From contig JAKSYS010000666.1 in assembly GCA_022925895.1 (NCBI GenBank), positions 1 to 34,102 on the forward strand: a stretch of DNA of 34,102 bases, in the 5' to 3' direction. The translations under genes and the position numbers were made by a program. The DNA is from Fragilaria crotonensis. Its lineage: Eukaryota > Bacillariophyta > Fragilariophyceae > Fragilariales > Fragilariaceae. A model generated the notes under the pieces. The model was not told the DNA's origin and searched no databases. It saw only the letters and a list, made by a program, of their open reading frames with translations. Of the stretch, positions 1,214 through 33,718 are shown in pieces (position 1 is the stretch's first letter; the number at the start of each line of letters is the position of its first letter).

Positions 1214-3676
1214 ATGATCAATGTTTTGAACTGTTGCTTCGGTGAGGAAGAGGAGATCAAGCAGGGAATATGGAAAGTAAGTGGAAGGATGATAAGAGAT
1301 ACTTGTAATTCAGTACAAGAGTTGTGCATCTGTTTGTCGACAATAACCGGCACCAATCCAAACTCACTCCTTGACGCAATTCCCTGTAAAGAATGGCAGG
1401 AGTGCATGGTACGAGGTGGATGATAAAGAAAACGATGACCGCAATCACTCCTTTATTCGAGAACAGGAGATTTTGCGACACCAAAAAGCCAAAGCCCGAC
1501 ACCATACCATCTATGCCAAGCCCTTGGACCTTGACGAGCATTTTCAAGTCCCACACTTTCCCAAGGGCGAAACTGAGAAAAAATTCATTGACCAAGCTCT
1601 GGGCGAGAACTTTGTTTTCTCACACATGGACGCCGACGAACGTCAGGTTCTAATTGACGCAATGCAAAAGTATGTTGCGCCCAAAGGTAGTGAAGTTATC
1701 AAACAAGGGGAACACGGAGACTACTTCTACATACTTCAAGAAGGAGAAATTGAGTTCTTCACCGATGGACACCGAGTTGGGTCTTGCAGTCCTGGTGGCT
1801 CCTTTGGTGAACTTGCCCTTCTTTACGACGCACCTCGCGCTGCAACGTGTCGAACAACTATGAAATGCGTCTTTTGGAAGGTTGGCGCCAAGACATTTCG
1901 TCATGTGCTCGCACGCTCGGCAGCCGAGGCTCATGGAGGGCTTTGTACCACAATCAAGTCGATTTCTCTCTTTGAGCACTTGTCTCCGAGTGAATTGACC
2001 AAGTTCGCGGCAGCGTTGACCCCAGTAAGTTACGTTGAGGGCGAACGCATCATCACGAAAGGAGAAATCGGTGAGGTGTTTTATATAATTCAAGAGGGCA
2101 CAGTTAGATGTCATGACATGGGTCTTGGAGGTGCCCAGTATGATACACAGTTGTTTCTATCGAAAGGAGAATGGTTTGGCGAACTCGCCTTGATGACCGG
2201 CGAACCACGATCCGAAAACGTAACTGCCGTTTCCAATGTCGACTGCCTAGCCCTTGATCGCGAAACATTTGAAGCGTGCTTTGGATCTCTACAATCGAGT
2301 CTATCGGGAGGGTTGAAGAAAAAGTTCATCGAAACGTCGCCCGTGTTTTCACACTCACAGTTTTCAGAGCAAGAATTAGACGAACTGGCCAATTTGTGTT
2401 CTGAGCAATGCCTTTGAAGGGCAGCACACTGGCAGAAGCGGGAAAGCCATACCAGCAGCAGTTGTGGATAATTGAGAAGGGAAAGATTGTTGTGACAAAT
2501 AGGCACGGTGATCTGTTCACCCTCGAATCCGGAGATTACTTCGGGATAAGTCAATAAAGGGTGAGCCCGGTCACATCAGCTCTCACACAGCAATTGTCGA
2601 GGAAAATTGCACCTGTTTCGTGTTGACGCGATTGGACATTGAATCAGTAATCGGCGACATCAACAGATTAGGAGCAATTCTACCATTCACTCCATCCAAG
2701 GTGAATTGTGCTCTCACTTTGAAAGATCTGACACTGCATCGCGTTCTTGGAAGCGGGGCCTTTGGGAAGGTCTGGCTGGCAAGCAGTAAGGCTGATAGCA
2801 AGCCATACTCAAACAGTTAAATAAGCGCCAGCTCATAAAGGCGAATCAAGTCAAGGCTATCTTCCGTGAGAAAACAATCATGCACTCAATAGGGCATCCA
2901 TTCCTTCTCTCGTTGTTCGCTTCCTTCCAAGATGAAGGTCACCTCTACCTTCTGTTGGAATTCATACAAGGGGGCGAGCTTTTCACTTGATTCACGACGA
3001 TAAAACCAATGGAATTCCAAACAGCCATGCAGTCTTCTATGCTGCGTGCGTCATATCCGCCTTGGGTCACTTGCATCAACGGTCCATTTGCTACCGTGAC
3101 CTGAAACCAGAAAATGTCATGGTGGGCGCTGACGGCTACTGTACCGTCATTGACATGGGATTCTCCAAAGTAGTGATGGAAGACCTATATACATTATGTG
3201 GAACGCCGGAGTACCTGGCGCCAGAGATAATCATATCGAAAGGTCACGATAAGGCCGTCGACAACTGGGCATTCGGGGTGTTGGTGTACGAAATGCTGGT
3301 CGGAAAATCTCCCTTCTTCGAATCGGGCATTGACCAGCTAAGCCTCTTCAAGAAGATTGTTTTTGTTAAGTTTGGCATTCCGAGTGATCTTGACGAGGAC
3401 GCCAAAGATTTGATTCAAAAACTGTTGCAACGTAGGGTCGCTGCTCGCCTCGGAAACCTCGCTCGCGGCAATCTTGACATTCGCCATCACAAATGGTTCA
3501 AAACCATTCACTGGCCAAGTCTTCTACGAAAGAAAATCGAAGCACCGTGGTTGCCAACAATCAAGAACCCCTTTGATGTGTCCCATTTTGACAAGAATAT
3601 CCCTAGTCCACCGCACGAAAAATTCTCTGCAAGACTAATAGATGAGAGAGAACAGCTACTTTTCAAGGATTTTTAG
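1214..3676 (+). CDS. Cyclic-nucleotide-dependent protein kinase (PKG/PKA type, AGC family)
   Basis: This is a serine/threonine kinase controlled by cGMP or cAMP. Exon 1 (1214-1276) begins at ATG and joins exon 2 (from 1392) across a 115-bp GT-AG intron (GTAAGTGG ... TGTAAAG), which replaces an ATG-less start in exon 2. The N-terminus MINVLNCCFGEEEE has two cysteines that could be lipidated. After adding one base near 2404, 2544, 2808 and 2985 the protein is 783 aa. It has two clear cyclic-nucleotide-binding domains (FGELALLYDAPRAAT about residue 160; FGELALMTGEPR about 283) and a weaker third (about 337-450). The kinase domain (466-720) has GSGAFGKVW, YRDLKPEN, DMG in place of DFG, and CGTPEYLAPE. 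The last residues, FKDF, match the FxxF hydrophobic tail of PKA-type AGC kinases. The N-terminal regulatory/C-terminal kinase order is that of PKG. Its 3' end converges on the carrier gene with a 73-bp gap. cGMP versus cAMP preference cannot be read from sequence alone. Confidence 0.9.
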
Positions 3677-8893: not shown

Positions 8894-11328
8894 TTACTCC
8901 AAACCAAAGCCAATGGCCGAGGTTGTGACTGCGATCTTCAGTTTCTCCAACATATCTTTTTTGGATGTGTAGTCGGGCAGATCGAGTCGATTGAAGCATG
9001 TGTGTGCTCTTGGGAATGTATATGTCTTTTGGTCGACGCCATGAATTGCAAACTTTTTAATATTTCCATCGCTGCCTTGCAGCACCGCAAAACCTCTGGC
9101 GGGGACACCCGAGGTACCAGTCACAAATTGAAGGAGGCGAGCCTTCATCTCTTGATCAAAGTCGTCCCTCACAATCTCCCAGAACCAGGTGACGACTTGA
9201 TGATCCTTGCCCTTAGATTCATAGCAACCCGAATAAACGGTGTGAGATTTCCAGTCATCCATATCAATCGTAGGCAAACCGCACAGCATCAGTTCCAGCT
9301 CGTGCGGATCAAAAATAGTCAGCGCCGGTTCAGGAATAACATCAAAGAAACCGAAGAGCAGTTCCGCCATTTGAGGCTTGGTTCGGTCAAGCATTCTGTA
9401 CTTGAGGTTTGCCTCAAGGTACTCGGGAATATTCTCGTTGGTTACCTCTTTCATGGCACCCTTCTCAACTAGTTCAACTTCAGTACGAATACCCAGAGTC
9501 TCCTCAGTAGCCGTAAAGTCTAGGCACATGAGGGACACGTCTTCCATGTTCGCGAGCTTTTTGAGCGACTGGTAGTACTCATAGTCTTCGTGTTCAATGT
9601 CTGCAAACGAGATGGGCCAACCCAACAAATGCTTGTAAATATGTCGAACCATGTGTCCTTTGATCAGCTGACGATCAAACAACGCACGGCCGATCACACG
9701 GCCCAGAAATCGGAAGTAAACGAGATGGTCGTCGGGCATGAAATACCTAATGTATGGAAAGATCAAACAAGTTAGAAATGGACAGCACAAAAACCAGGCA
9801 TATAGCTGCAAGCGAGCTTCCAGTAGTACGTACTGCTGGCAGGATTAATCGTCATGCACATTTGATTTTGAGTCGAGTTGAGCCACAACCCACGATCGGG
9901 TCAAAAATTTCGGCAGATATAAGTTCAAACCATTCTCGCGCCAAACCACCTGCATCAACACCAGGTTCACCGAAATTCAAATCGCCACCGTTTTCGAAGA
10001 TCATCGCGGCCCAGCGACATGATTGCATCGACTGAATCGTAGAGAAGCGACTGTCTTCGGACCCCAATTTGATGTGACCATCTTCCCACGGAGATGTCAA
10101 CTGGCCACAAGGTTTTCAAACCATCTCATCTTTTGTTCAGGGACTTGCCCTGAATCATTGAAATATCGGTGTAACTCATCAGCGTCTTGTCTCCCACAAC
10201 AACTTTGGAATCCACAACTGCATCTTGAGCATGGACAAAGTCGACGGTACCGGTACGCATGCGAGCATCATTGCCCTCCAAATAGGTAATCTTCCGAACA
10301 TATGCAGAGGCCTTGAAATCAATCTTTCCATCATCCTCCACGACGACGTGGTCATTCTCCGTTCGAACCCATTGGAATTTGAGGTCCTGAACACGAACGG
10401 TTCGACTCCACAGTTGATTGCCTTCGTAGGCGAGCTTTATATTGGAAATACTTGATTCACAGGTAACTGAAATCGAATCTTTTGTCCAGGCATAACGTTG
10501 GGAGGGCACGTGACCAAGACCCGTTGTTCATTGGCCATGAGTGTAAAAGGTTGTCCGGGGTTAACCCCAGGAGGGACAACGACCTCAAATACTTGAGTCT
10601 TGGGAGCTGCTTGGGGCTCTTCAGGTTGAGTGGGTGGCACGATTCGAACTTTCATGTTGGGCCCTGCATTTGGAGGACAGGTGACCATAAAGCGTTGCCC
10701 TTCCGCGGTGACGTTGAATTGCATGCCAGGGTATACGTTGGGAGGGATAGTGACTAAAAAAGTTTGCGCAGTCCCACCGGAGTCAACTGCCGCGCGATTC
10801 ACTTGAGCCACGTCCGGGCTCATTTGAGCGTATCCTCCACCAGGCCCTTGATCCGGGAGCTGTCAGTGATGCAGCCTTGAGCAGCGTGGACTGTGTGACA
10901 GGCTCAGGTGGTAAGGTTATCTGCAAACTCTGCCCGGGTCGGCTAGTTGGAGGACACCTTACTCGAACACGGCGAGATCCAGCGTGCACAAAACTCGAGC
11001 CCGGCTGCACTCCTGCTGGAACGATTACTCGAAATACTTGCGCTGGACCAGCGGAAGTTCTAGTGACACCATATGCTCCAGGACGGGAGGTATCATTAGA
11101 AGAAGAGGCCACTTGTGGCACACTAGTCCCAGCAACTATCAGATTGCCGGATGGTAAACTCCCGTTTGTGGTACAGTAGTGGAAGAGATGATGAAGGGAA
11201 TTTGAGGCGCTGTTGTGAGTTGTGCTGGAGGTACAGATGAGACCATACGAGCCCCGACTTGACCCGGTAGCTCATAAAGGATCGTTGTCCTGGATAAGCG
11301 TTTGTTCTTTGCTGTGGTTGTTCAGGCT

Positions 11329-11428: not shown

Positions 11429-13737
11429 GATAACTGCTTTCTAATGAATGTACCTGCAAACTGGAATGAAAAGTGTTCAAGAAGTGAATAGAAACCTCTT
11501 GAAACTGGGTTAGAACTTGTTATTCGGTCAGTCTCATCAACGAAAAAACGTTGGTTGCTGTCGTCGTTGTGTACTCGTACTCAATATGCGTTTTATTATC
11601 TGTGCTGGACACAGCCGCTGTGGAAACGCAACACGCTAAAACGCTACAACAGGCACGAGCGGGATAACCAGGTCTTCCTTCGATTTTTTTGATTCGTGGC
11701 GCAGACAATCGTTGTGGAAGAAATCCAACTCGGGTTTTGGAAAATTCAACGAAATTTGGTCAGACAAACATACGCTTGACTGACTCACGTTCCTCGAACT
11801 TCGTGACACCGGTACGAACACTGGAACTTGTACACGTTTTGGAGTTACACTACTGCTCGTGATTGGCTTCTCGAGAATGCAGCGACAAATGACTTGGCTC
11901 CCGATTCAGACGTATGGATCGCAGACATGTTCTCTCCGAGCGCTGTCATCGAAGAAAGCAGATCAGGGTCGAAACCACCAGGATGACGAATTTTGACGTC
12001 AGCAAGATGTCACGGAATGTTTCATCAAGGGAATTTCGGTTATGAAACTGAAACATGGGCACATGTATTCCTCTATTTATATAGCTTGAATTTTGAAATG
12101 TCATACTAGGGATACACACGTTGTATGGAGTTCTACCTACTGTATTAGGTGCCGTTAGAACCTTTGTGTGAGCCATTGAGCCGCGCCCATATTCAAATTT
12201 GACAGCCACGAGAGTCCCTGTACAAGAATACTGATACGTACATTTTTACGGAACCGGATTCGGCACACAATTGGATTCACAATTCCAATAAAATGTAATT
12301 TGGGACAATGGACCCCAGCTGACAATCTGCTTGTAATATCTCTGTAGTTCACTTCTTTTTTCTTTCCACTCTGTGCATTTACAGAACATGTAGTAATTGT
12401 AGTCATTATTTGTGGAAATGGGATTGAAGCTCTCTGCTTTTGATTGATAATCTTATCATTTTTCTGAGGAGGATGACACCAACACCAGTGTACAAGCACC
12501 GGTATCGCATCAATTCCATATCGACAAATCTCACGACGGTAATGCCGGAGTACTGTACCAGGCAGCCTGAGTACTCCAGTGTAGTAGTAGATGTAGACCT
12601 GCGTAGTCTCCAGTACAGTTAGTGGATGTACAGCAAATGTAGGCTTCGAAGTAAGACGTATATTGAACTCGGGTACGTGGGCCACTCGAAATATTTTGTA
12701 CTGTAGTATAATACCCTGATGACAAGTTACGAACATCATTCTCTCTTTCTGTACGGCCTTACGTAGAGGTGAGTATGACATACTTGTATACCACTCGCAG
12801 GTATGCACACCAGGTAGGAACATATTCGAGTGCATGTGCATGCCGTTAACGCCAACAGAACAATCGCAACGGGAATGTGATGCACACATAATGTAAGATT
12901 CCCATCGTCAATTAGCTACGCGTGGAATTAATTTTCTACGCAATCTTTGTGTATGGACTCCACATGCTGACGTCAAAAATCGTCACTCTGGTGGTTTCGA
13001 CTCGGATCTGAAAATGCACAAAACGGGAGTACGCGAGCAACACTCCAGCAATGTGCAGTACTGAGACTTCGTAGAATTCGGAGAAAAGGAATTGTCGTAC
13101 CAGTACCAGCGACGAGTATTGTAGACAACACTGCGCGCGACTTCGCATTCGGCCTTCGGCGTCCATTCTCAAAACAGAAGGTCGTGCGTCGTGCAGTCGT
13201 GCATTCGTGCATTCTGCTTTTCCACGCAATACCGGTAGACTACTTGGCGACGATACGCATTTGGAGTGAGCTTGGTACATATCATACGGTACCAAGCACC
13301 TGGTACCGGTACTTGCACTTGACTGTCAAAGTGTAGTACGTACTGTACGTACTGGACAAGTACCCGGTGTGCTACTCAGGAGGTTGCGGAAAATTGACTT
13401 TCGCTACTGGAAACGAGTACTGGACTATTCTAGATGCAGACACCAGCACACCGCAGTTCTTGTGTGCCACCATTCCACGTTGCGAGGTAGTGCAACCTTT
13501 AAAACCCCAAATTCGAACTCACTACAATATTTCATTTACGTCAATATCAGCTGGACCAATTTTGATTGCTGATGCGGAGAACGTGCTAATCGTTTGTTAT
13601 ATTAAAAAACGACATACACATTTTCAATTGATGTCAATTACATTGTTGATACGATTGTACTATATGTAAGGATCATGTAATTACTCCGAAAATAGATATC
13701 CGCATCAGGGTTAGTAAGCCGTGACCATAGTTCAGGT
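11429..13737. other. Long intergenic region, GTAC-rich, no gene recognised
   Basis: About 2.3 kb lie between the start of HECT copy 1 and the left TGACTCA array. Several open frames occur, the longest on the minus strand at 12155-12889, but they have no recognisable domain and Cys/Arg/Ser-rich composition. The DNA is dense in overlapping GTAC palindromes (12545-12610 and 13280-13365). No RNA gene is identified. Confidence 0.5.
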
Positions 13738-13888
13738 AAAGTGACTCATGGTGAGCAAATGACTCTGGTGAAGTGACTCATGGTGAGCAAATGACTCAGG
13801 TAAAATGACTCATGGTGAGCAAATGACTCATGTAAAACGACTCAGGGTGAGCAAATGACTCAGGTAGAACGACTCATGCAGAGAAAAT
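13738..13888. repeat. Left TGACTCA array (boundary of mobile nest)
   Basis: Nine copies of the core YGACTC[A/T], most of them within AATGACTCATGG or AACGACTCAGG, occur in about 150 bp. Several are joined by the spacer GGTGAGCAA. The last unit reads AACGACTCATGCA. A matching array lies at 23267-23416 in the same orientation, and no such cluster is seen elsewhere in the window. The two arrays enclose all the transposase genes. Confidence 0.8.
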
Positions 13889-14578: not shown

Positions 14579-15546
14579 ATGGAGATAAGCAAGTGTGAAA
14601 GAAAATCACTATTGAAGCTGGTTAGACATTAGTTATTGCCTTAGTAATAAACACTCTGTTCGCACTTCTAACTATCTTTACAATTTGCATCCCTCGCTTT
14701 TGGGCTCACATTGTGGGGTTGCGTCAAGCACTAGGCTTCTTGCATCATCCGATCCCCACTGTTGATTGACAAGTGTGTCTGTATAGTCTACAACTGGCAC
14801 TTGACGAAACGACGGTGAAATCGTAATCGTCAACTTCACAATTGACTAAAAACGTACGATAGACGGTAGGAAAACGAGATTCCGATAAAGAAAACGTTAC
14901 ATTGTGTTCAATCGCACATCAGTCGCACATCATGATCGTTCGTACGGTGACTCGCGTACCGAACACAATTCATACCGTATGCACAATAGTTTTATGGGGA
15001 AATTACAATTTAGTCCTTTTTTAAAGATTTTTCAAAGTAGTACAATGACTTACTATTTAGTACAAATACGTTTGCACTTACAATTTAGTCCATTTCTTTT
15101 GCCCACTTTTTACAATTTAGTCCATAATCACCAAAAATCCAATTTCCACGCCTGCCATCTTCATTTCTCACGAAATGAATGGTACCCCGTCCTGTAGAAG
15201 ACATCAAAATGAGCATCATTGCCGTCGCATTTTCCTCAAACATTTCATTTCCAATGTGTTCACATCTCACTTATACTTTCAGAACTTTACGCTTATGAAT
15301 GATGTTGACTGTGGTCATAATTGTTGACCACAGAGGTCTGTTGCATAAATGGCTCTTCATCCATGATGTCATTGTGGTGCTACCAAATTTCAGGTGTGCA
15401 CGACAACAGTGTTTGACCTACTTCCTCATACACAGTAGCGTTGACTTCATTGTTTGGAGGCAACTGCATCGAACACAGAGAATGGAAAAATCTTTGCACT
15501 CTCATCTGTCACACCACTCGCTCCCCTCAAACCAAACTTCTTGGCA
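14579..15546. other. Intergenic region 5' of Ulp1-MULE gene with short direct repeats
   Basis: No gene is recognised. Three copies of TACAATTTAGTCC lie at about 15004, 15079 and 15111, with a related TACTATTTAGTAC at about 15050. They could be subterminal repeats of the MULE element or a promoter feature; I found no inverted copies on the far side of the gene. Two copies of ATCGCACATC/AGTCGCACATC sit at about 14910-14930. Confidence 0.45.
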
Positions 15547-18500
15547 ATGTTGTCTTTACGAAAGCCTTCTCGTCATGCGCGAACTCAGTTGTTTCCTGGA
15601 GATCCCCGTTTTGGAGTTGTCATCAAACCGCCGGCAAGTGATGTTGAATGTCTAAAAAAAGAGCTTTTCTCAGTACTGCTCTTCTTGACTACATCATCAA
15701 CCTTACAACTTTACTGCCTGACTCGACATTGTCACATACAGTACCGGCTGTTGAACCGTTGCTGGGTAGTCTTGGTGCAGAGGCATTTATATCATCAATG
15801 AATCTAACTGCCTCAATTAAAAGGGAACAAGCGAGAACAAAGAATGATTGGAAAGCATACCAGAATCACATTCGCAAGATTCGCACCAAGTTCAAGAATG
15901 TTCTCAAATACCATGTCAAGGATGGCGATTTCAAGAATATTCTCGATGAAAACATCGAGGATGTCCCACAGAGGCTTATTATTCCAATTGTTCGGGGGCC
16001 ACCTGATAGTCCCGGACATTTCTTTGTGGCATGCTTTGACTTTTCGGTAAATGATCCAAAATTCTTTGTGAACGTGTGTTTCTACGACTCTATGGAGCGC
16101 GCACGAACGAGAATTCATCGTTCCAGTACTGCTGCTGAAATTGTCGAGAAGGTCAACTTCTTCTTTAAGTTCTACATTCTTCATGAAGCCAAATATCAGT
16201 CCCTACACCAGTCAGATGTCGACGTTCTTCAACGCGCACAATACAAAGAATGTCCTCGGCAGAACAATGGATACGACTGCGGAATCTTTACAGTCGCTGT
16301 CGTGTTACATCTTCTTGAACGAAAAGAAGTTGATGAGATGTCTTTCACTCAAAGTAATGTCACAGAAGGTAGGAAACACTTGGCGACGGCTTTGATTAAT
16401 GCAAAATCCCCTTCACGTGAGCAGATTCGTGGCGTTTTCAGGAAATGCTTCCCTCTGCTCTTTGTCACCGAGGAGGGAAACAGTAGTGTCCCAACCATCG
16501 ATTGTACTGAGGATCAGGATACACTATTGAGTGTTCCCTTGCAGGTCTGTGGTGGTGCCAACGACATCAAGGAGACCACCAGTGTGGACGACAAGGATGA
16601 GGACAACATAGCACTCCGGGTGAGACACAAAGATTTGGCAACTCTGAGTGCAAGTGTGGACGACGAGGATGAGGACAACATAGCACTCCGGGTGAGAGAC
16701 ACAAAAGATTTGGCAACTCTGACTGCTGATGTGTTTCCTTCGAATAACAGAAACATAAGTAATGAGGCGAAGGTAAAGGACGACGATGAAGAATTTTTTG
16801 ACACCATCGACACTGACACTGAATCCCAGATGGAAGATGCTGCTGCTTCAAAGACAGAGAATGAAGATAGTGTTAGCGCTCTTTCAGGCGACACTACCTT
16901 CTACGACCTTATGAAGGAAGCAAAGTTGCAGTGCTTTCCAACACTGGAAGCTGTGAATCCTATTGTCGAAGCTTATGAAGTTCGGACTGGGAATTACTTG
17001 CGCATCAAGAGGTCAATCAACGACAAATTTCGTGTGTACGAATGCCGCGAGCATCTGGGGTGTCCTTTCCAAATTCGTATCTCCCGCCGACGAGCCAATG
17101 GAAGTTTTGTGGTCTCGAAGATGAAGACCAAACACAGTGACGTTCGCCGCCCAGCAAAGGCAAAAGATGGGCGGAAATGGAAGAAGCGTCGCCATGCAAA
17201 GCTGAATGACATTGTCGTCAAGGTTCTCAAAACGAAGGATGGTGATCCGACACCGAACGACGTCATCAAAACCGCAGCAAACGAATGCGGTATAATTGTC
17301 CCTTACATGACGGCATACCGTGTAATAACAACCGATGCCGGGGTAGGACGGAGATTAATTGCGAAGAGTTTTGAGCAGATTATCCCGTACGTAGAAGCCA
17401 TGAAGAAATGCAACCCCAAGTCGGTCATCGGATGCACAAAGAGCGAAACCAACGAGTTGGTCGATGTCTATTTCTTTCCTGGTTTTATGAACGAGGCTCT
17501 GAAGTTTGTGCGACCTGTTGTTTCGCTTGACGCAACTCACCTGCGCAGCGAGTACAAGGGAACACTGTATGTCGCATCTGTGTTGTCAGGAAACAATGAT
17601 GTGTTTCCCATTGGGCTGATGATATCTTCTGGTAACGAAGATGGAGCAACATGGACGAAGATGCTAAGGCTTCTCAAGCAAGCATCTCCTATCCTTAGTG
17701 GACGTTCATTTGTCTTTATTTCGGATCGGGATAAGGGTCTCAAGGCTGCCCTGGACGATGTTTTCCCAAGGAATTTGAGTTTAGCTGTGCTAAGCACATA
17801 GAATCCAACGTGACCCAGCGGTTTGGAAAACAGTGTGGACGCTATGTTATGGCGATGGCCAAGACGTATTCTGCAAGGAATGCTGCTAATATGCTGGATC
17901 TGGTGCGCCAAATAAAGCCCAGCGCTGCTGCCTACATTGAAAGCATTGAAAGCGGCGGTGTGCTCTGGAAATGTTCACAATGGATTGCCTGGCAACACTC
18001 GAACTTGCCCCCTCGATACGGAATTGTTACATCCAACACGAGTGAGAGCGTGAACAACATGTTCTCAGAGGCTCGGGATCTGGCGTGGATGGAAGCTTTA
18101 GAAAGATTGTTGACATTATGTCGACAAGGATTGGTGATTGTCGAACGAAGTATTTGAAGCGTGAGGATTCGGAAGTTGTTCCCCGTGTCGCTCAGATTTT
18201 GAAAGCACGTTGGGATGCTGCAGCATCCATGGCAGTGATGGAGATTGAACTTGGGTGTGATGAGTTCAAAGTGACATCATCAGAGTATGGTTCCACTGCT
18301 GACGAAGGCGAGCATGACATTGTCCTCTCCGTCGCCCACGGGTCACCAATGCACCAGCGAAGTATTCACATTGTAAGGCCTGGTGTACAATGGTGTTCGT
18401 GTGGGGCATGGCAAGATTGTATGTTTCCCTGCCGGCATGCCTGTGCGGTGTACAGAAAGTGGAAAGAAGTCGACTTTATGACACCTTGTGTTCTTTTCCG

Positions 18501-18728
18501 CGTGAGCATACGAGCGTTGGGATTAACTCGACTCGGAAATGCCGTTCACACATCAAGAGTCAACGAGATGTTGTTGTGTTTGGGAATGATCCTATCGGTC
18601 AAGCCAGTCCGCAGTTCGGGGATGTACTGAAAACAATGGAGGATACTGGATCTCAGTCACACGTCGGTATTGCTTCCACGGAACTATCTGTCAGGTTGGC
18701 AAATCAGCAAGGTCACAATTTAATATAG
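15547..18728 (+). CDS. Ulp1/SENP-type cysteine protease fused to a MULE transposase
   Basis: The protein appears to combine a SUMO-type (C48) protease with a Mutator-like DDE transposase. Adding one base near 15652 (A run), 17768 (CCC), 18099 (TTT) and 18477 (TTT) gives one 1061-aa frame from ATG 15547. The N-terminus (KPSR ... DPRF ... LST.LLDY) is matched by an antisense fragment at 18691-18990, which supports the upstream start; the ATG at 15648 is the alternative. The protease keeps its catalytic set: His in PGHFFVACFDF (16017), Asp in FYDSM (16086), Gln and Cys in RQNNGYDCG (16260, 16278). An acidic linker with a tandem repeat follows, then a Cys/His-containing DNA-binding-like region (CREHLGCPF). 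The transposase has Asp in VSLDATHL (17529), Asp in FISDRDKGL (17724), Glu in NTSESVNN (18044) and a SWIM zinc finger (CSC ... CRH, 18394-18438). Plant Kaonashi MULEs also carry Ulp1-like genes. Confidence 0.85.
16581..16727 (+). repeat. Tandem repeat in the acidic linker of Ulp1-MULE
   Basis: Two adjacent units of 72 and about 75 bp encode SVDDKDEDNIALRVRHKDL and SVDDEDEDNIALRVRDTKDL. They are nearly identical in DNA as well as protein, so the duplication is recent. It lengthens the Asp/Glu-rich spacer between protease and transposase. Confidence 0.9.
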
Positions 18729-18990
18729 GGGAAGTTGTTGCTAATCCACCAATGTACAATGGTGGTACCGATATATCTTCATCCTGAGAGGGAAGCAATG
18801 GTCGTGTGGGAGATGGAGCTCCTCCTTGGATCAAGTAGTCCAACAGGTTCTTTGTACTCAAATACTTATTCTTGCGCAGCGCCTGCACATCTTCTGCATG
18901 TGCCGAGAGAGCAAAATTGAACCTTGGGTCTCGTGGAAAAAAGTTCTTCTCAACAGCACCTCCTCTACTTGGCTTCTTCTTTGGTGGCAT
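18691..18990 (-). CDS. Antisense fragment homologous to the N-terminus of Ulp1-MULE
   Basis: A 99-aa open frame starts at ATG 18990 (MPPKKKPSRGGAVEKN) on the strand opposite the Ulp1-MULE gene and overlaps its last 38 bases. Its sequence lines up with the start of the Ulp1-MULE protein: KPSR, then FPxDPRF, then DVxxLxK, then LSTxxLLDYLI, and a Pro/Leu-rich stretch. It stops before any protease motif. It may be the first exon or relic of a second, divergent copy inserted in inverse orientation, or a small stand-alone protein with this domain. The two protein sequences are clearly diverged, so it is not a recent local duplication. Confidence 0.55.
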   Translation of the reverse strand: MPPKKKPSRGGAVEKNFFPRDPRFNFALSAHAEDVQALRKNKYLSTKNLLDYLIQGGAPSPTRPLLPSQDEDISVPPLYIGGLATTSPILNCDLADLPT

Positions 18991-19621
18991 AATGAGACAA
19001 GAAATCAGAGACAGGGACTGTCAACAAGGGAAGGGCGAGAACGAGGGTGATTCTGTTGATGATGATGAATGGCTGATGAGATTGTGTTGTGTTGGTGTCA
19101 AAAAAGATTGTTGTTGTATTTGTACAGCACTGTATACGAGCATTTTGTTGTTGGTGGCCGGTCTCCAAGCCCAAGAAGCAAATCTGACGGCGTATGACAA
19201 TGCAACCAGAATGTATCCAGGAGCACACAAGATGACCACATTCTTCCTCACACCATCAAGCCAAGCCTTGTCTAAAGAATAGTAGATTACGACCGTTAAT
19301 TTGTACTGTTCATTCTACAGGACATTGTACAATGCAAATAGATATTGTATGCAGCCCTACTAATCTTTGAGTTACTATCGTATGTACCATCATGTTATAG
19401 TTGTATGCAGGGTACGTACTCAAGACGAGAATTGTAAGTGTTACTGGAGTACAATCATACATGCATACACCATTGATCCTTGGATACTACAGTACAAGTA
19501 CCTGGTAGGTATGCAGTAAGACAAATTACTGTGTTAAAATTCAACTAGAAGATTTTGACGGTTAATTCGAACAGATCATTCTACAGTACTCCGAGTACAT
19601 TGAAGCCGTGGTTGTTTGAAA
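18991..19621. other. Intergenic region inside mobile nest
   Basis: No convincing gene is seen. It includes a pair of 30-bp near-identical direct repeats and several GTAC-rich patches (19410-19420, 19489-19503). It separates the antisense Ulp1-MULE-like fragment from the 597-aa gene and may contain the right edge of the inserted MULE element. Confidence 0.45.
19291..19586. repeat. Pair of 30-bp imperfect direct repeats
   Basis: The repeats are at 19291-19320 and 19557-19586 and agree at 25 of 30 positions; both end in TCATTCTACAG. They flank 236 bp without a gene. They could be the ends of a small non-autonomous insertion or traces of a duplicated insertion boundary. Confidence 0.6.
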
Positions 19622-23266: not shown

Positions 23267-23416
23267 AAATGACTCAGGCAGAAACTTAGCCTCGACGAAT
23301 GACTCAGGTTTGTTCAGAATGCCTGAACAAATGACTCATGGGTGAGTCATTTTATTGATGCCGGAGAAAATGACTCAGGCATAAAACGACTCAGGCAGTG
23401 AAAACGACTCATGCAT
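23267..23416. repeat. Right TGACTCA array (boundary of mobile nest)
   Basis: Seven copies of YGACTCA occur in about 150 bp, six in the same orientation as the left array and one inverted (GGTGAGTCATTTT). Typical contexts are AAATGACTCAGGC and AACGACTCATGCA, the latter matching the final unit of the left array. It lies just outside the 5' end of the Harbinger-like transposase. Confidence 0.8.
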
Positions 23417-24048
23417 AAGTAAAAAACCCTAAGGTAAAGCTTAAATGCGAATCGTGGACATATGTTCTCTTCCAATTGATTTTCGGATAATTCGAAGTTT
23501 ACATTGGAAAAAACTATGACCATTTTTGTCATGGTTTCTCAATCTTCTTCGTTGTGCTTGTATGTAGCTTTTCTGATTCACAGTCGAATTCGCCTCAAAG
23601 ATATAAAACGATAAAACACGCTCTCAATGTGTGCTCAGTCCGACACGACGGTTTTTTAATGAGGAAGAGCTCGCTTAAACAAATCCTTAACTCGTGATGA
23701 CAAGCACGTCATTTTGAGTCGTTGTCAGTGTCTACGCCGGATTTGTACGACGAAAAGTCAATCTTCCGCAACCTCCAGACAATGGCCACGACGCATCCAC
23801 CGAAATACTTACACACGACTCGACACTCGGCACGACTACTATCCTCCCTCTCGGCTTGCGGAAGGGTGCGCCATGAACCTTGACTGGACGTCAGACCTGA
23901 CTAAGACGAGGAGGACGTGAAAACCCCACCGAGCTCGTAGGAAGACCACGACCTACTAGTTGAATAATGCAAGACCTACACAAACATAACTACCGGTAGG
24001 TTAGCCAGCCATGCGGTGGAAAATCTACTTTACTTCAATTGCAAGGGC
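23417..24048. other. Intergenic region right of the mobile nest
   Basis: No gene is recognised. The palindrome CTACCGGTAG lies at 23990-23999, about 50 bases past the stop of the histidine-phosphatase-like gene. AAAAAACCCTAAGG at about 23422 may mark the outer edge of the mobile element. Confidence 0.45.
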
Positions 24049-26029: not shown

Positions 26030-26882
26030 ATGGCCATGAGCACATCGCGTCTCACCATTCGTTGCATGTTGCGGTTGTTGCTTCTCCTTTCTCCCTGCGT
26101 TGTTCCTAGTGTCAGTTCCAGCAATCAGAATTACAATGCGTACAATTACGATATGACAACCCCACAATTCACTCCCGACGGTCGTTTGCTGCAAGTGGAA
26201 TACGCCTCACTTGCTGCAACACATTCCTCCCCCTGCGTCATTTGGAAACCACCGCAGGGCACTGATGATGAAATAACGATCATCATGAATGCAAAACCCT
26301 CTCGAAAGATTCAAAATCGATTGATTCCGCTCTCGGACACGACCCGTTTGTTTAAGCAGAGTGGTTAGTGATTCACTCGCCTTGTTATCCAAAGTCTACG
26401 AACAGCAAGACAATAACAGACGATTGTACGGCTCCGCCTTGACCGAACTCCAAATTGCCAGTTCCATTGCCATGTCCTGTCAGCGTCATTCATTTGGAGG
26501 TGGACTGCGACCATTCGGGTCCACTATGGTCATTGTATCACCAAATCGCATCCTCCAAACAGACCCGAGTGGTGCCGTCGTTACAGTGAATGCCGATGCG
26601 ACGCTTCATTTCGTGGGAGGCAGTAGCAGTAGTGTAGACGAGTTGCGACGAACCACCCAACTGCTTCTGCTGCAGCAACACCAACGAGCCGAAACAACCG
26701 AGACGACATTGGCAGACGCACTGGTAATTCTGGCCAAAGCAGTATTAGAAACATCTCTGGGTGAGAATGAACCAGTTGACAATGCGTGGCTAGAAGTAAT
26801 GGTGGTAAGCAAGAAACGAGGTATTCACAAGCTGACAAATGACCAAATTGAACGACTCTTGGCTAAAGTTAGAGAACAATAG
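26030..26882 (+). CDS. Divergent 20S proteasome alpha-subunit-like protein with signal peptide
   Basis: Alpha subunits form the outer rings of the 20S proteasome. ATG 26030 (CACCATGG) has a good context; ATG 26036 is the alternative. The frame changes near 26360, where two missing bases restore a 284-aa protein. The alpha-subunit signature is clear in TPQFTPDGRLLQVEYA (about residues 43-58), and later GGGLRPFGSTMVIV and LQTDPSGAVVTV match the family core. Unlike cytosolic alpha subunits (about 230-260 aa, starting close to this motif), it has a strongly hydrophobic leader (RCMLRLLLLLSPCVVPSVSS), which predicts entry into the ER. No Phe follows the likely cleavage site, so plastid stroma is less likely; periplastid compartment, endomembrane or secretion are possible. 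The C-terminal half is divergent, so it may not assemble into a normal ring. It is convergent with the NVL-type gene (99-bp gap). Confidence 0.75.
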
Positions 26883-31278: not shown

Positions 31279-33718
31279 TCACCTGTCAATGTTAAACATC
31301 GTTACAGCAAGCTTCAGTTTCTCCTCCAATTCAGCCTTCGATTCGTACATCGGTAAATCGAGACGATTGAAGCATGTACTGCGGTGTCAACGAAGAGTGC
31401 GGGAGAGAGGTATGTTGAGCATGAGAACCAGGTCGACAGCAAACTCGCCTATGTATTCCACAGCCTAAAGCACTTACTGAGCACGAGGATACAGACAGAC
31501 ACCAAGAGCAACACCATGAATTGTGAACTTGCGAATGTTGCCGTCGATACCCTGCAACACACCAAAACCTCGACTGGGGACCCCGGATGTTCCAGTCACA
31601 AACTGCAACAGACGCGCCTTCATTACATGGTCGAACTCAGTCACCACCTCCCAAAACCATTTGCATGATTGATGCTCAACTCCAATACGATCGCATTCGC
31701 CAGAATATTCTGTATGCTCCATCCAATCGGCCATCATAATCGCTGGCAGACCACACATGAGGAGTTCAAGCTCCTGGAAATCAAATACTGTCAAGAGAGG
31801 CTCAGGAATGACATCGAAGAAACCGAGCAACAATTCATTCAATTGCGGTTTCACGCGGCCGAGCATTCTGTACTTCAGGCAAGCCTCCAAGTACTCTGGA
31901 AGGTTATCGTTCGTCACGCCAACGTTGGCACCGTCCTTGATCAACTCAATTGTTTCCTTGGCTCCCAGTACTTCTTGCGTCATGCTGAAGTCTAAACAAA
32001 GCATCGAAATATCTTCTCCATTTCGACTCATCGTTTCCAGCGACTTCAGCTTATTATAATACTCCTCGTCCACCATTTCCAGGTCGCTGAAAGTGAAGGG
32101 CCAACCAAGCATATGCTTGTAAATATATTGAACCATGTGTCCGGCAACCAATTGCCTGTCAAACAATGCCTTGCCCATAACGCGACCCAGGAATCGATAG
32201 TATATCAAATGATCTTCGCAGCAGAATTCTGATGACGAAATCAACGCAAATGAGTGACACGACACAAGTTTGGCATTAGGGACGTCAACGTAAACCATAC
32301 GCACCGCTTGCTGGGTCGATTTCCATGCACTTTTGATTGACCGCACTGGACTGCCACAGACCCATGTCTGGATCGAATATCTCCTCCGTCACAAGTTGGA
32401 ACCATTCTCTCGCCAACCCACCCGCGTCAATACCCGTTTCTCCAATAAACTCAAATCGCCAATACCTACGAAGATCTTGTCGATTCAACGACATGACGAC
32501 GTCGACAGAATCTCCAAGCAGGAATTGACGTCGAACGTTCATGCGCATGTATCCTTCTTTCCATTCCACTCGCAATTGATGACATTCGAGTTCGAACCAT
32601 TGAGCCTTTTCTTCAAATGCCTTGACTTGTGCGTTGGCCATATCTGAATAGGAGACCAGGTCTCGATTGTCGGCAGACACGATCCTGGAATCGACCACCC
32701 CCTCCGTGGCTGGAACAAGCGACAAGATTCCAGCTCGGATGCGGTGATCAGTTCCCGGTCGGAATTCCAACTTTCGCACGTACGCCGATTTGGTGATGTG
32801 GAATCTTGTGTTGTTCTCAATTTCAACCTTGTCGTCGACGCGGACCAAATGGATTTTCAAGTTTGACAGGCGAATCGTGCCCTCCCAGGCGTCCTTGTCG
32901 TAGGAGAACTTGAGTCTTGCAGCCTCGTTGGTAGCCTTTGGTTTTTGCGTAATGGCGAGAGGCACCTTGAAGCGAATGCGCTGTCCAGGCGAGGCGTTGT
33001 GTGGACACGTGACCAAAATCCGGACGCCTCCAGCCAGGAGAGCAAAGGGTTGGCCTGGTTGAACCCCGGGTGGTACTTCGACCTCAAAAAGCTGTGACGT
33101 GTTGTCCTTGGGGGGACGAGGATCATTGAACTGTCCCGAGTCATGCGGACCACTGAGACCCTTCGTCAGATCTGTAACTGGGACGATGCGAACTCTCATT
33201 CCACGTCGCACGGTTTGAGCATGTAACCAAGAGGTGCTGAGTTTGAGTAATGACCGGAAACAGCTGGCCACCACGTGAATAAAACCTTATGAATGCACGC
33301 AGCAGAGACACCTTTCGCGCTTGGATCATCGTCTCTACGAACATTTGGAGAATCAGGAAGTATTTCCGGATTGCGAGGTGGAGGTGCACTTCTGCTGTCA
33401 CTTGATCCACCGGAAGTGTTATCTTCAGGGACTGCCCTGGTCTGAAATCAGGAGGGCATCTCAATCGCAAAATTCTACCTGCTGCGTAAACTTGAAATTC
33501 TTCGCCAGGACTGATGTTGTCATGAACTGTAACGAGATAGTCCGTGGTTCCTTTACGGGTCGCATCATGTGCATGTATAGTTGCATGTAACGTGGGGGGG
33601 GGGGGTTCACCAGGTACGCCCCAGGCTCAAACATGGTCGGCTTCGTTTCCGGTTCTTGTCGGAATGTTCTTCGTTGAAACCAGTGCATAATGCGAGCAGA
33701 GAGCCGTGTGGGCGACAT
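31279..33718 (-). CDS. HECT-type E3 ubiquitin ligase with repeated PPGVxPGQ modules (copy 2)
   Basis: This is the paralogue of the gene at 8894-11428 with the same layout. Exons on the minus strand are 33718-32305, 32228-31478 and 31378-31279. Introns are 76 bp (GTGCGTATG ... TCATCAG) and 99 bp (GTAAGTGC ... CACCGCAG). About six bases are missing, one in a run of twelve C (33594-33605), one near 33393, two near 33290 and two near 33225; adding them gives 757 codons (756 aa). Three modules carry the VxVPPGVQPGQPF ... VTCPxxxxPGQRIRF pattern. The HECT domain has ETGIDAGGLAREWF, YYRFLGRVMGKALFDRQ and the catalytic HTCFNRLDLP. The catalytic Cys codon (31372-31374) lies in the last exon, five bases after the splice site. 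The ATG at 33688 is an alternative start. No polyglutamine tract is present. Substrate is unknown. Confidence 0.83.
31379..31477 (-). other. Intron splitting the HECT catalytic loop (copy 2)
   Basis: Donor CGTGCTCA|GTAAGTGC and acceptor GACACCGCAG|TACATGC join PRA-H to TCFNRLDLP. The other copy reads through the same residues without an intron, which both confirms the splice and shows intron gain or loss between the paralogues. Confidence 0.85.
32229..32304 (-). other. Intron in HECT copy 2 (NPAS position)
   Basis: Donor CAAGCG|GTGCGTATGG and acceptor TTCGTCATCAG|AATTCTGC join DPAS to EFCCEDHLIYYRF. The position matches the single intron of copy 1, so this intron predates the duplication. 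Confidence 0.85.
33594..33605. repeat. Run of twelve G (C on coding strand)
   Basis: A G12 homopolymer on the plus strand lies in the 5' part of HECT copy 2 and encodes prolines. The reading frame breaks exactly here, and one more base restores it. Confidence 0.9.

Follow-up and report, generated by a model that had tools for sequence, protein, structure and literature searches.

A C48 protease and a Mutator-like transposase on one polypeptide in the diatom Fragilaria crotonensis

Introduction

Peptidases of the Ulp1-type C48 family have been described in several kinds of DNA transposons. Among Mutator-like elements (MULEs), Ulp1 domains are reported from Arabidopsis, rice, maize, melon, grapevine, Hydra and lancelet, and C48 peptidases also occur in Ginger1, CACTA and oomycete Crypton elements, according to the available text of these papers (PMC2836005, PMC2528002, PMC3212892). 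Here we analyze a related element located around positions 15547–18728 of a 34,102-nucleotide stretch of Fragilaria crotonensis DNA (hereafter the window, JAKSYS010000666.1), together with its relatives in the same genome (62.1 Mb, 881 contigs). The window is an entire contig (C631), and the other C and L labels designate contigs and extracts of this genome. A reading of the window made from its letters only (the sequence-only reading) had proposed that a C48 protease and a MULE transposase are carried there by one polypeptide, which would remove SUMO or ubiquitin-like tags from host chromatin proteins or from itself; it had also called the genome diatom-like, in agreement with its source.

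The plant Kaonashi elements (KI and KIU) and the ULP1 MULEs of melon, rice and grapevine resemble the diatom family in that many MULE copies carry a C48 domain. However, KI-MULEs lack terminal inverted repeats (TIRs) and have their ULP domain in reverse orientation to mudrA, while both ULP orientations occur in the melon, rice and grapevine elements (available text of PMC2528002). Neither Kaonashi feature is found in the diatom family, in which protease and transposase lie in the same sense and the same frame, between long TIRs. Hydra and lancelet MuDR elements (Repbase, as cited in the available part of PMC2836005) also have Ulp1 in Mutator transposases, but in animal hosts, and the likeness is one of description only. 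In Ginger1, an Ulp1 (or OTU) protease is likewise fused to a transposase, but the latter is Gypsy-integrase-like and the protease is C-terminal (PMC2836005). Oomycete Cryptons are also stramenopile DNA transposons with an Ulp1-related C48 peptidase, but they use a tyrosine recombinase instead of a DDE transposase, and the CryptonS peptidase is on an additional protein (PMC3212892).

In the survey of 1631 MULEs by Dupeyron et al. (2019), the available main text of which contains no mention of protease, peptidase or ULP, group 37 (MULE-Diatoms) consists of diatom MULEs with one open reading frame (ORF) and a SWIM finger, as here. By its description, this group has TIRs of 123–124 bp and no other listed motif, whereas the family studied here has TIRs of 444–638 bp and a C48 domain (PMC6446971). 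No C48-MULE is reported for a diatom among the literature matches listed (subscription papers and Repbase reports lie mostly outside that search). What is new is the diatom variant, as Ulp1 in MULEs is already known from plants, Hydra and lancelet. The sequence-only reading, which contrasted the fused protein with plant Kaonashi elements, overstated its novelty, since Hydra and lancelet Mutator transposases are also reported to carry Ulp1 (PMC2836005).

Results

Protease and transposase in the window

The plus-strand frame 15648–17801 is open over 717 residues and contains both the C48 domain and most of the MULE core. Both exceed their curated Pfam cut-offs in this frame: Peptidase_C48 (PF02902, E = 2.3e-8) at residues 110–247 and MULE (PF10551, E = 3.4e-9) at residues 624–708. 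The co-occurrence of the two domains on one polypeptide, as originally observed, is thus confirmed.

From 5' to 3' on the plus strand, an N-terminal coding piece (15586–15669), with an FPGDPRF motif common to relatives, matches the C48 family profile in frame 15445–15801, off the main frame. The Ulp1/SENP-type C48 protease domain proper, placed by Pfam, the family profile and residue positions, spans 15654–16475 and has the His (16017–16019), Asp (16086–16088), Gln (16260–16262) and Cys (16278–16280) codons which, together with the PF02902 match, assign it to the C48 peptidase family. The linker that follows (16476–16889) is indeed acidic, as had been noticed (26% Asp+Glu), poorly conserved, and contains an internal repeat of about 72 bases. 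Next comes a MuDR-type DNA-binding region (16890–17192), delimited with the family profile; PF03108 does not reach its cut-off either here or in the copies showing it (E = 0.00078–0.039). The transposase core (PF10551, 17517–17771, located by Pfam and residue positions) carries the first two DDE residues, D1 (17529–17531) and D2 (17724–17726), in the main frame. The remainder of the DDE domain (17756–18064), with CxxH (17786–17797) and the catalytic glutamate (18044–18046), is read in the next frame (17735–18157). The C-terminal region (18094–18480) includes the predicted SWIM zinc finger (Pfam stretch 18388–18459), which exceeds the PF04434 cut-off (E = 8.1e-5) in a separate frame, 18046–18627, and it stops before the CCHC knuckle of a full-length relative. 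A DDE domain with D, D, CxxH and E, followed by SWIM, places the element in the MULE superfamily.

The earlier statement that both active sites are intact holds for the residues themselves, as the C48 tetrad, D1, D2 and the glutamate are all present, but the glutamate is in another frame than D1 and D2 and the window copy is damaged. Similarly, the main frame does join the C48 and MULE domains, but the N-terminus, the catalytic glutamate and SWIM are read in other frames.

The fused architecture recurs across copies

Searching the genome with the 717-residue protein yielded at least 79 matching stretches, grouped into 51 loci: at least 31 with protease and transposase parts, three with protease only and 17 with transposase only. 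The figure of 31 is a lower bound, as several of the transposase-only loci (C22, C65, C532 and C798) have a C48 match nearby. With so many loci carrying both halves, chance joining is excluded. In a separate genome-wide count, PF10551 has 91 matches and PF02902 has 44; a same-strand C48 match lies within 3 kb upstream of 24 of the 91 MULE matches, and 24 of the 44 C48 matches have a MULE match downstream. These 24 pairings are again a minimum, because the copies at C131:127736 and on C636 are fused yet unpaired by this rule. Twelve of the 67 unpaired MULE matches were checked, none of them among the 79 stretches: ten fail to match the DDE profile of the family at E ≤ 10, and the other two are a decayed family member (C290) and a weak relative (C18). 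The fused elements thus look like a separate lineage instead of a random subset of MULEs. No relative was found in viral and prokaryotic contigs scanned with the C48 alignment, the whole-protein alignment and the second gene described below.

The C873 copy (L025) encodes 1041 residues in one frame, in the order C48, acidic linker, MuDR-like DNA-binding region, DDE, SWIM and CCHC knuckle; C48, MULE and SWIM exceed their cut-offs, and the CCHC motif was read in the translation. Eight of ten related frames scanned have both C48 and MULE over the Pfam cut-off (the exceptions, in the frame given, being L033 without MULE and L036 without C48). PF10551 exceeds its cut-off in nine of the ten (it is not listed for L033) and PF04434 in four (L024, L025, L026 and L036), several of the other six ending before the finger. 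Among 24 extracts with both a C48 and a DNA-binding match, 15 have them in one uninterrupted frame, which also starts DDE in 13 cases and enters SWIM in six; some extracts are versions of one locus (window/C509/C646, C775/C526, and C87/C131:35097). The sequence-only reading had named relatives never joining the two domains as evidence that would speak against it, and these 15 unbroken frames are the opposite of that. C48 has the same N-terminal position in all of them, and the frame breaks of the remaining copies vary from copy to copy. The 15 linkers are 86–231 residues long, with 13–27% Asp+Glu, and are not conserved between subfamilies.

The protease is under purifying selection

Readable copies, among which some loci are represented by more than one version, retain the catalytic His in 23 of 25 cases, Asp in 22 of 24, and Gln and Cys in 25 of 25 each; for the transposase, they retain D1 in 21 of 24 (one being a gap) and the glutamate in 20 of 22. 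The C48 tetrad is preserved between copies that are only 35% identical. We fitted codon models to single uninterrupted pieces, after removal of copies more than 93% codon-identical to one already kept; this left ten of 17 copies for C48 (277 codons), ten of 23 for the DNA-binding region, eight of 14 for DDE and nine of 17 for SWIM. The ratio of nonsynonymous to synonymous rates (omega) is 0.148 for C48, 0.149 for the DNA-binding region, 0.098 for DDE and 0.127 for SWIM. Models with omega = 1, fitted over nine kappa values, are worse by twice the log-likelihood difference of 523, 238, 712 and 359, respectively. The protease is therefore no passenger: it is under purifying selection as strong as that on the DNA-binding region. 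In addition, trees of the two halves (eight copies) agree in their main groups, and the transposase topology is compatible with the C48 data (approximately unbiased [AU] test, p = 0.095).

The best solved relatives of the family profile are SENP1, SENP2 and yeast Ulp1 (E = 2.9e-7 to 1.7e-4). SENP7 and SENP5 match more weakly, and the NEDD8 protease SENP8 has E = 0.66. The significant part of the SENP match is the catalytic half, in which His, Asp, Gln and Cys align, although SENP1, SENP2 and Ulp1 are host enzymes with Trp, not Phe, after the His. As for possible substrates, the genome contains 12 matches to the SUMO-like domain PF11976. The best host-type C48 sequence (on C460) has no match to the family profile, and a C460-type host gene was rejected as the source of the protease; this evidence is weak, because the C460 frame covers no more of the domain than its beginning (profile positions 1–120).

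Element ends and evidence of movement

TIRs of 444–594 bp, 91–100% identical, are found in nine of 20 extracts (several others may not reach both ends), and the C873 element has TIRs of 638 bp, 96% identical. Most element ends read GGGGAAATT. The family thus has the long TIRs of MULEs, of which the window copy retains only the left one. Target duplications are A/T-rich. By script, they measure 8–10 bp in four of the nine TIR elements (L022, 9–10; L026, 9; L031, 9; L039, 8 in a T run); three others end at a contig edge, and the remaining two (L028 and L040) show 9 bp by eye. For C873, the only match between target sites is 7 bp, offset by one base. Target-site duplications of the family hence fall in the 8–11 bp range of MULEs, and are mostly 9 bp in intact elements. 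Several similar copies have the element in common but different flanks, and there are short relatives with paired ends (for example C20:75686–76595), which look like non-autonomous copies. Both observations indicate that the family has moved.

State and history of the window copy

The left TIR of the window copy (14996–15477, plus strand) starts with GGGGAAATTACAATTTAGTCC. Homology to the C49, C540 and C764 copies begins at 14990–14998, and C49 and C540 have the repeat again, inverted, at their opposite end. This stretch has 45 matching stretches in the genome, and GGGGAAATT occurs in the window only at 14996. The nine bases just outside (TAGTTTTAT, 14987–14995) occupy the expected place of a target-site duplication, as judged from sister elements, and have no partner in the window, the right end being lost. 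On the other side, homology to C49 and C540 stops at 18476, short of the natural C-terminus, and the normal 3' end is replaced by an inverted 5' piece of the C54/C875 subfamily (18732–19281, minus strand). The latter comprises a repeat end and the C48 N-terminus, with a minus-strand C48 N-terminal match and 88–89% identity to L031 and L032. The last part of the polypeptide as first drawn, beyond about 18476, is thus not its C-terminus. The window copy thus no longer has its right end, and it is probably immobile.

The flanks from about 13375 are common to the window, C509 and C646, and the last two look like other versions of the window locus. C509 has an unbroken frame of 997 residues whose span includes the protease, the SWIM region and all that lies between; as in the window, the first N-terminal piece is out of frame, and Pfam SWIM does not score. 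The window coding part differs from C509 by seven substitutions and six insertion/deletion events, and from C646 by seven and 19. With C509 unbroken and so few differences, the window frame breaks represent copy-specific decay or residual assembly errors.

A second gene beside the protease

Members of the C873/C87 subfamily carry a second, divergent gene, at most 808 codons long and oriented head to head with their C48-MULE gene (for example L059:62–2485, which is C87:156261–158684, and L025:44–1441 on the minus strand). It is one of a large family: stretches matching its two halves number 111 and 136 across the genome. Among 44 C48 or C48-MULE loci, the second gene is present at 25 and absent from 19. 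It is head to head within 4 kb at 19 loci (C32 being rearranged) and upstream in tandem at six (C20, C579, C346, C313, C193 and C873:61316), with a gap of 798–971 bases; no other arrangement was seen at the 44 loci. Four of the tandem cases (C346, C313, C193 and C873:61316) have no same-strand MULE match. On C873 the inverted repeats enclose the second gene, and repeat matches at 26639 and 34170 place it between those of C532 as well. It was not seen beside the window copy.

Neither Pfam nor PDB offers a meaningful match to the 808-residue frame. An HxD and a WDGRxxRHCTS motif are invariant in six copies and may resemble those of an iron-dependent dioxygenase. A TET/JBP protein was considered and rejected, since Pfam Tet_JBP matches nothing in the genome at E ≤ 1. 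The C48 protease and this protein of about 800 residues, perhaps an iron-dependent dioxygenase, might form a counter-silencing pair moving with transposons, a proposal which we regard as doubtful. If true, one mobile element would bring two enzymes against host chromatin marks.

Other features of the window

Upstream of the element, a tandem array of 32-base units (13732–13876, with a related stretch at 23382–23418) has a TGACTCA core, which we take to be AP-1-like. Inverted arms of 46 bp (11959–12004 and 12965–13010), 89% complementary and 960 nucleotides apart, flank a minus-strand frame of 244 residues without Pfam match; 11959–13010 is possibly another small DNA transposon. Two HECT ubiquitin-ligase domains are on the minus strand (8894–9811, E = 4.9e-82, and 31474–32346, E = 2e-63), near a shared, 71% identical DNA stretch (8925–9001 and 31301–31377). 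On the plus strand, cyclic-nucleotide-binding domains precede a protein kinase domain (1371–2414 and 2987–3673), and 1371–3673 is perhaps one cyclic-nucleotide-dependent kinase gene with an intron.

Discussion

The window thus holds a decayed, 3'-rearranged copy of a MULE whose transposase and C48 protease form a single polypeptide, and selection on both halves suggests that tag removal serves the element in transposing or in evading silencing. The transposase would carry the protease to the element's own DNA, at its ends, and the protease would there remove SUMO or another ubiquitin-like modifier. Targets may be silencing or repair proteins on the element chromatin, or the transposase itself, and as a result the element would stay expressed or transpose. 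We favor this explanation as a whole and find it somewhat probable. The interpretation given by the sequence-only reading is partly supported: its single polypeptide, active-site residues and acidic linker hold, and tag removal from chromatin proteins or from the transposase is inferred. Published observations offer a context. For example, the silencing of transposons in flies involves a SUMO ligase (PMC7272611), and in Arabidopsis KIU-carrying VANDAL elements, which have an Ulp1 domain on an anti-silencing VANC protein, induce hypomethylation of their relatives, with no role assigned to Ulp1 itself (PMC13317346). In F. crotonensis, all 48 mobilome genes in a differentially expressed set are up at high pH; the available text does not state if the present family is included (PMC9732472).

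Several observations weigh against this explanation. The codon trees are long (11–21 substitutions per codon), so that synonymous sites are near saturation. Recent copy pairs have a higher omega (C48 median 0.43, maximum 1.2), as expected of decaying insertions. These pairwise values are partly contaminated: the C48 rows of L021 and L037 carry an opposite-strand fragment and broken copies were merged piecewise, which is why our estimates of selection come from the codon models of single pieces. The exact C48 topology, which places two divergent copies differently, is rejected by the transposase data (AU p = 0.004). An exchange of halves between related elements is visible in L029 and L045 (C87 and C707), in which synonymous divergence is 0.07 for C48 and 0.40 for DDE. 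As to the substrate, the N-terminal WLxxxLLD aligns with WLNDEIIN of SENP1 but is not significant alone (i-Evalue 75), and the catalytic His is followed by Phe in the family but by Trp in SENP1, so the substrate may differ from SUMO. In SENPs, the Trp residues at these two places cover the Gly-Gly tail. The N-terminal Trp position is Trp, Phe, Tyr or Met in the family and, as both positions vary, the tunnel may be conserved in kind, not in letters. SUMO-interaction-like motifs are not enriched in the 15 linkers (none in 12 and one in three, against shuffle means of 0.03–0.70). Finally, an AlphaFold model of the window protease domain alone, made without an alignment, has a mean predicted local distance difference test score of 36.4 and is unusable for fold searches.

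Other explanations of the fused protein differ in how well they withstand these data. An assembly or frame-reading artefact could be imagined from the frame breaks of the window copy, and the published F. crotonensis assembly was made with Nanopore and Pilon (available text of PMC9476933), an approach prone to errors in repeats; this is refuted by the unbroken fused frames of 15 of 24 extracts, which include several separate insertions bounded by inverted repeats. MULEs also often capture gene pieces (PMC2528002 and PMC13317346, in the parts available), and C48 might then be a functionless host fragment acquired passively by transduplication. The low omega of C48, the strongly worse fit of omega = 1, a tetrad kept at 35% identity and a constant N-terminal position in 15 extracts largely refute this origin, which we consider highly improbable. 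With the protease N-terminal and a long linker before the transposase, the enzyme could instead cut its own polyprotein and free the transposase. By eye, however, no Gly-Gly or other site is common across subfamilies in the 15 linkers, and C48 enzymes normally need a folded ubiquitin-like substrate, so that self-processing is very unlikely.

During transposition, the substrate of the protease may also be the transposase or factors of DNA repair, and not silencing chromatin. Bao and Jurka proposed a repair role around transposition for the Ulp1 and OTU domains of transposases (available text of PMC2836005), and a fusion in cis favors substrates nearby. Our data do not separate such a role from an action on silencing proteins, and both may hold; taken by itself, it seems rather unlikely.

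If modifier removal at the element's own DNA is indeed what the fused protease does, this would point to SUMO as a component of the control of transposons in diatoms. The association of C48 proteases with DNA transposons has arisen repeatedly, in MULE, CACTA, Ginger1 and Crypton elements. In the diatom MULE, it takes the form of one protein in which the protease is measurably constrained, and an old guess, that deSUMOylation aids transposition, becomes a testable claim.

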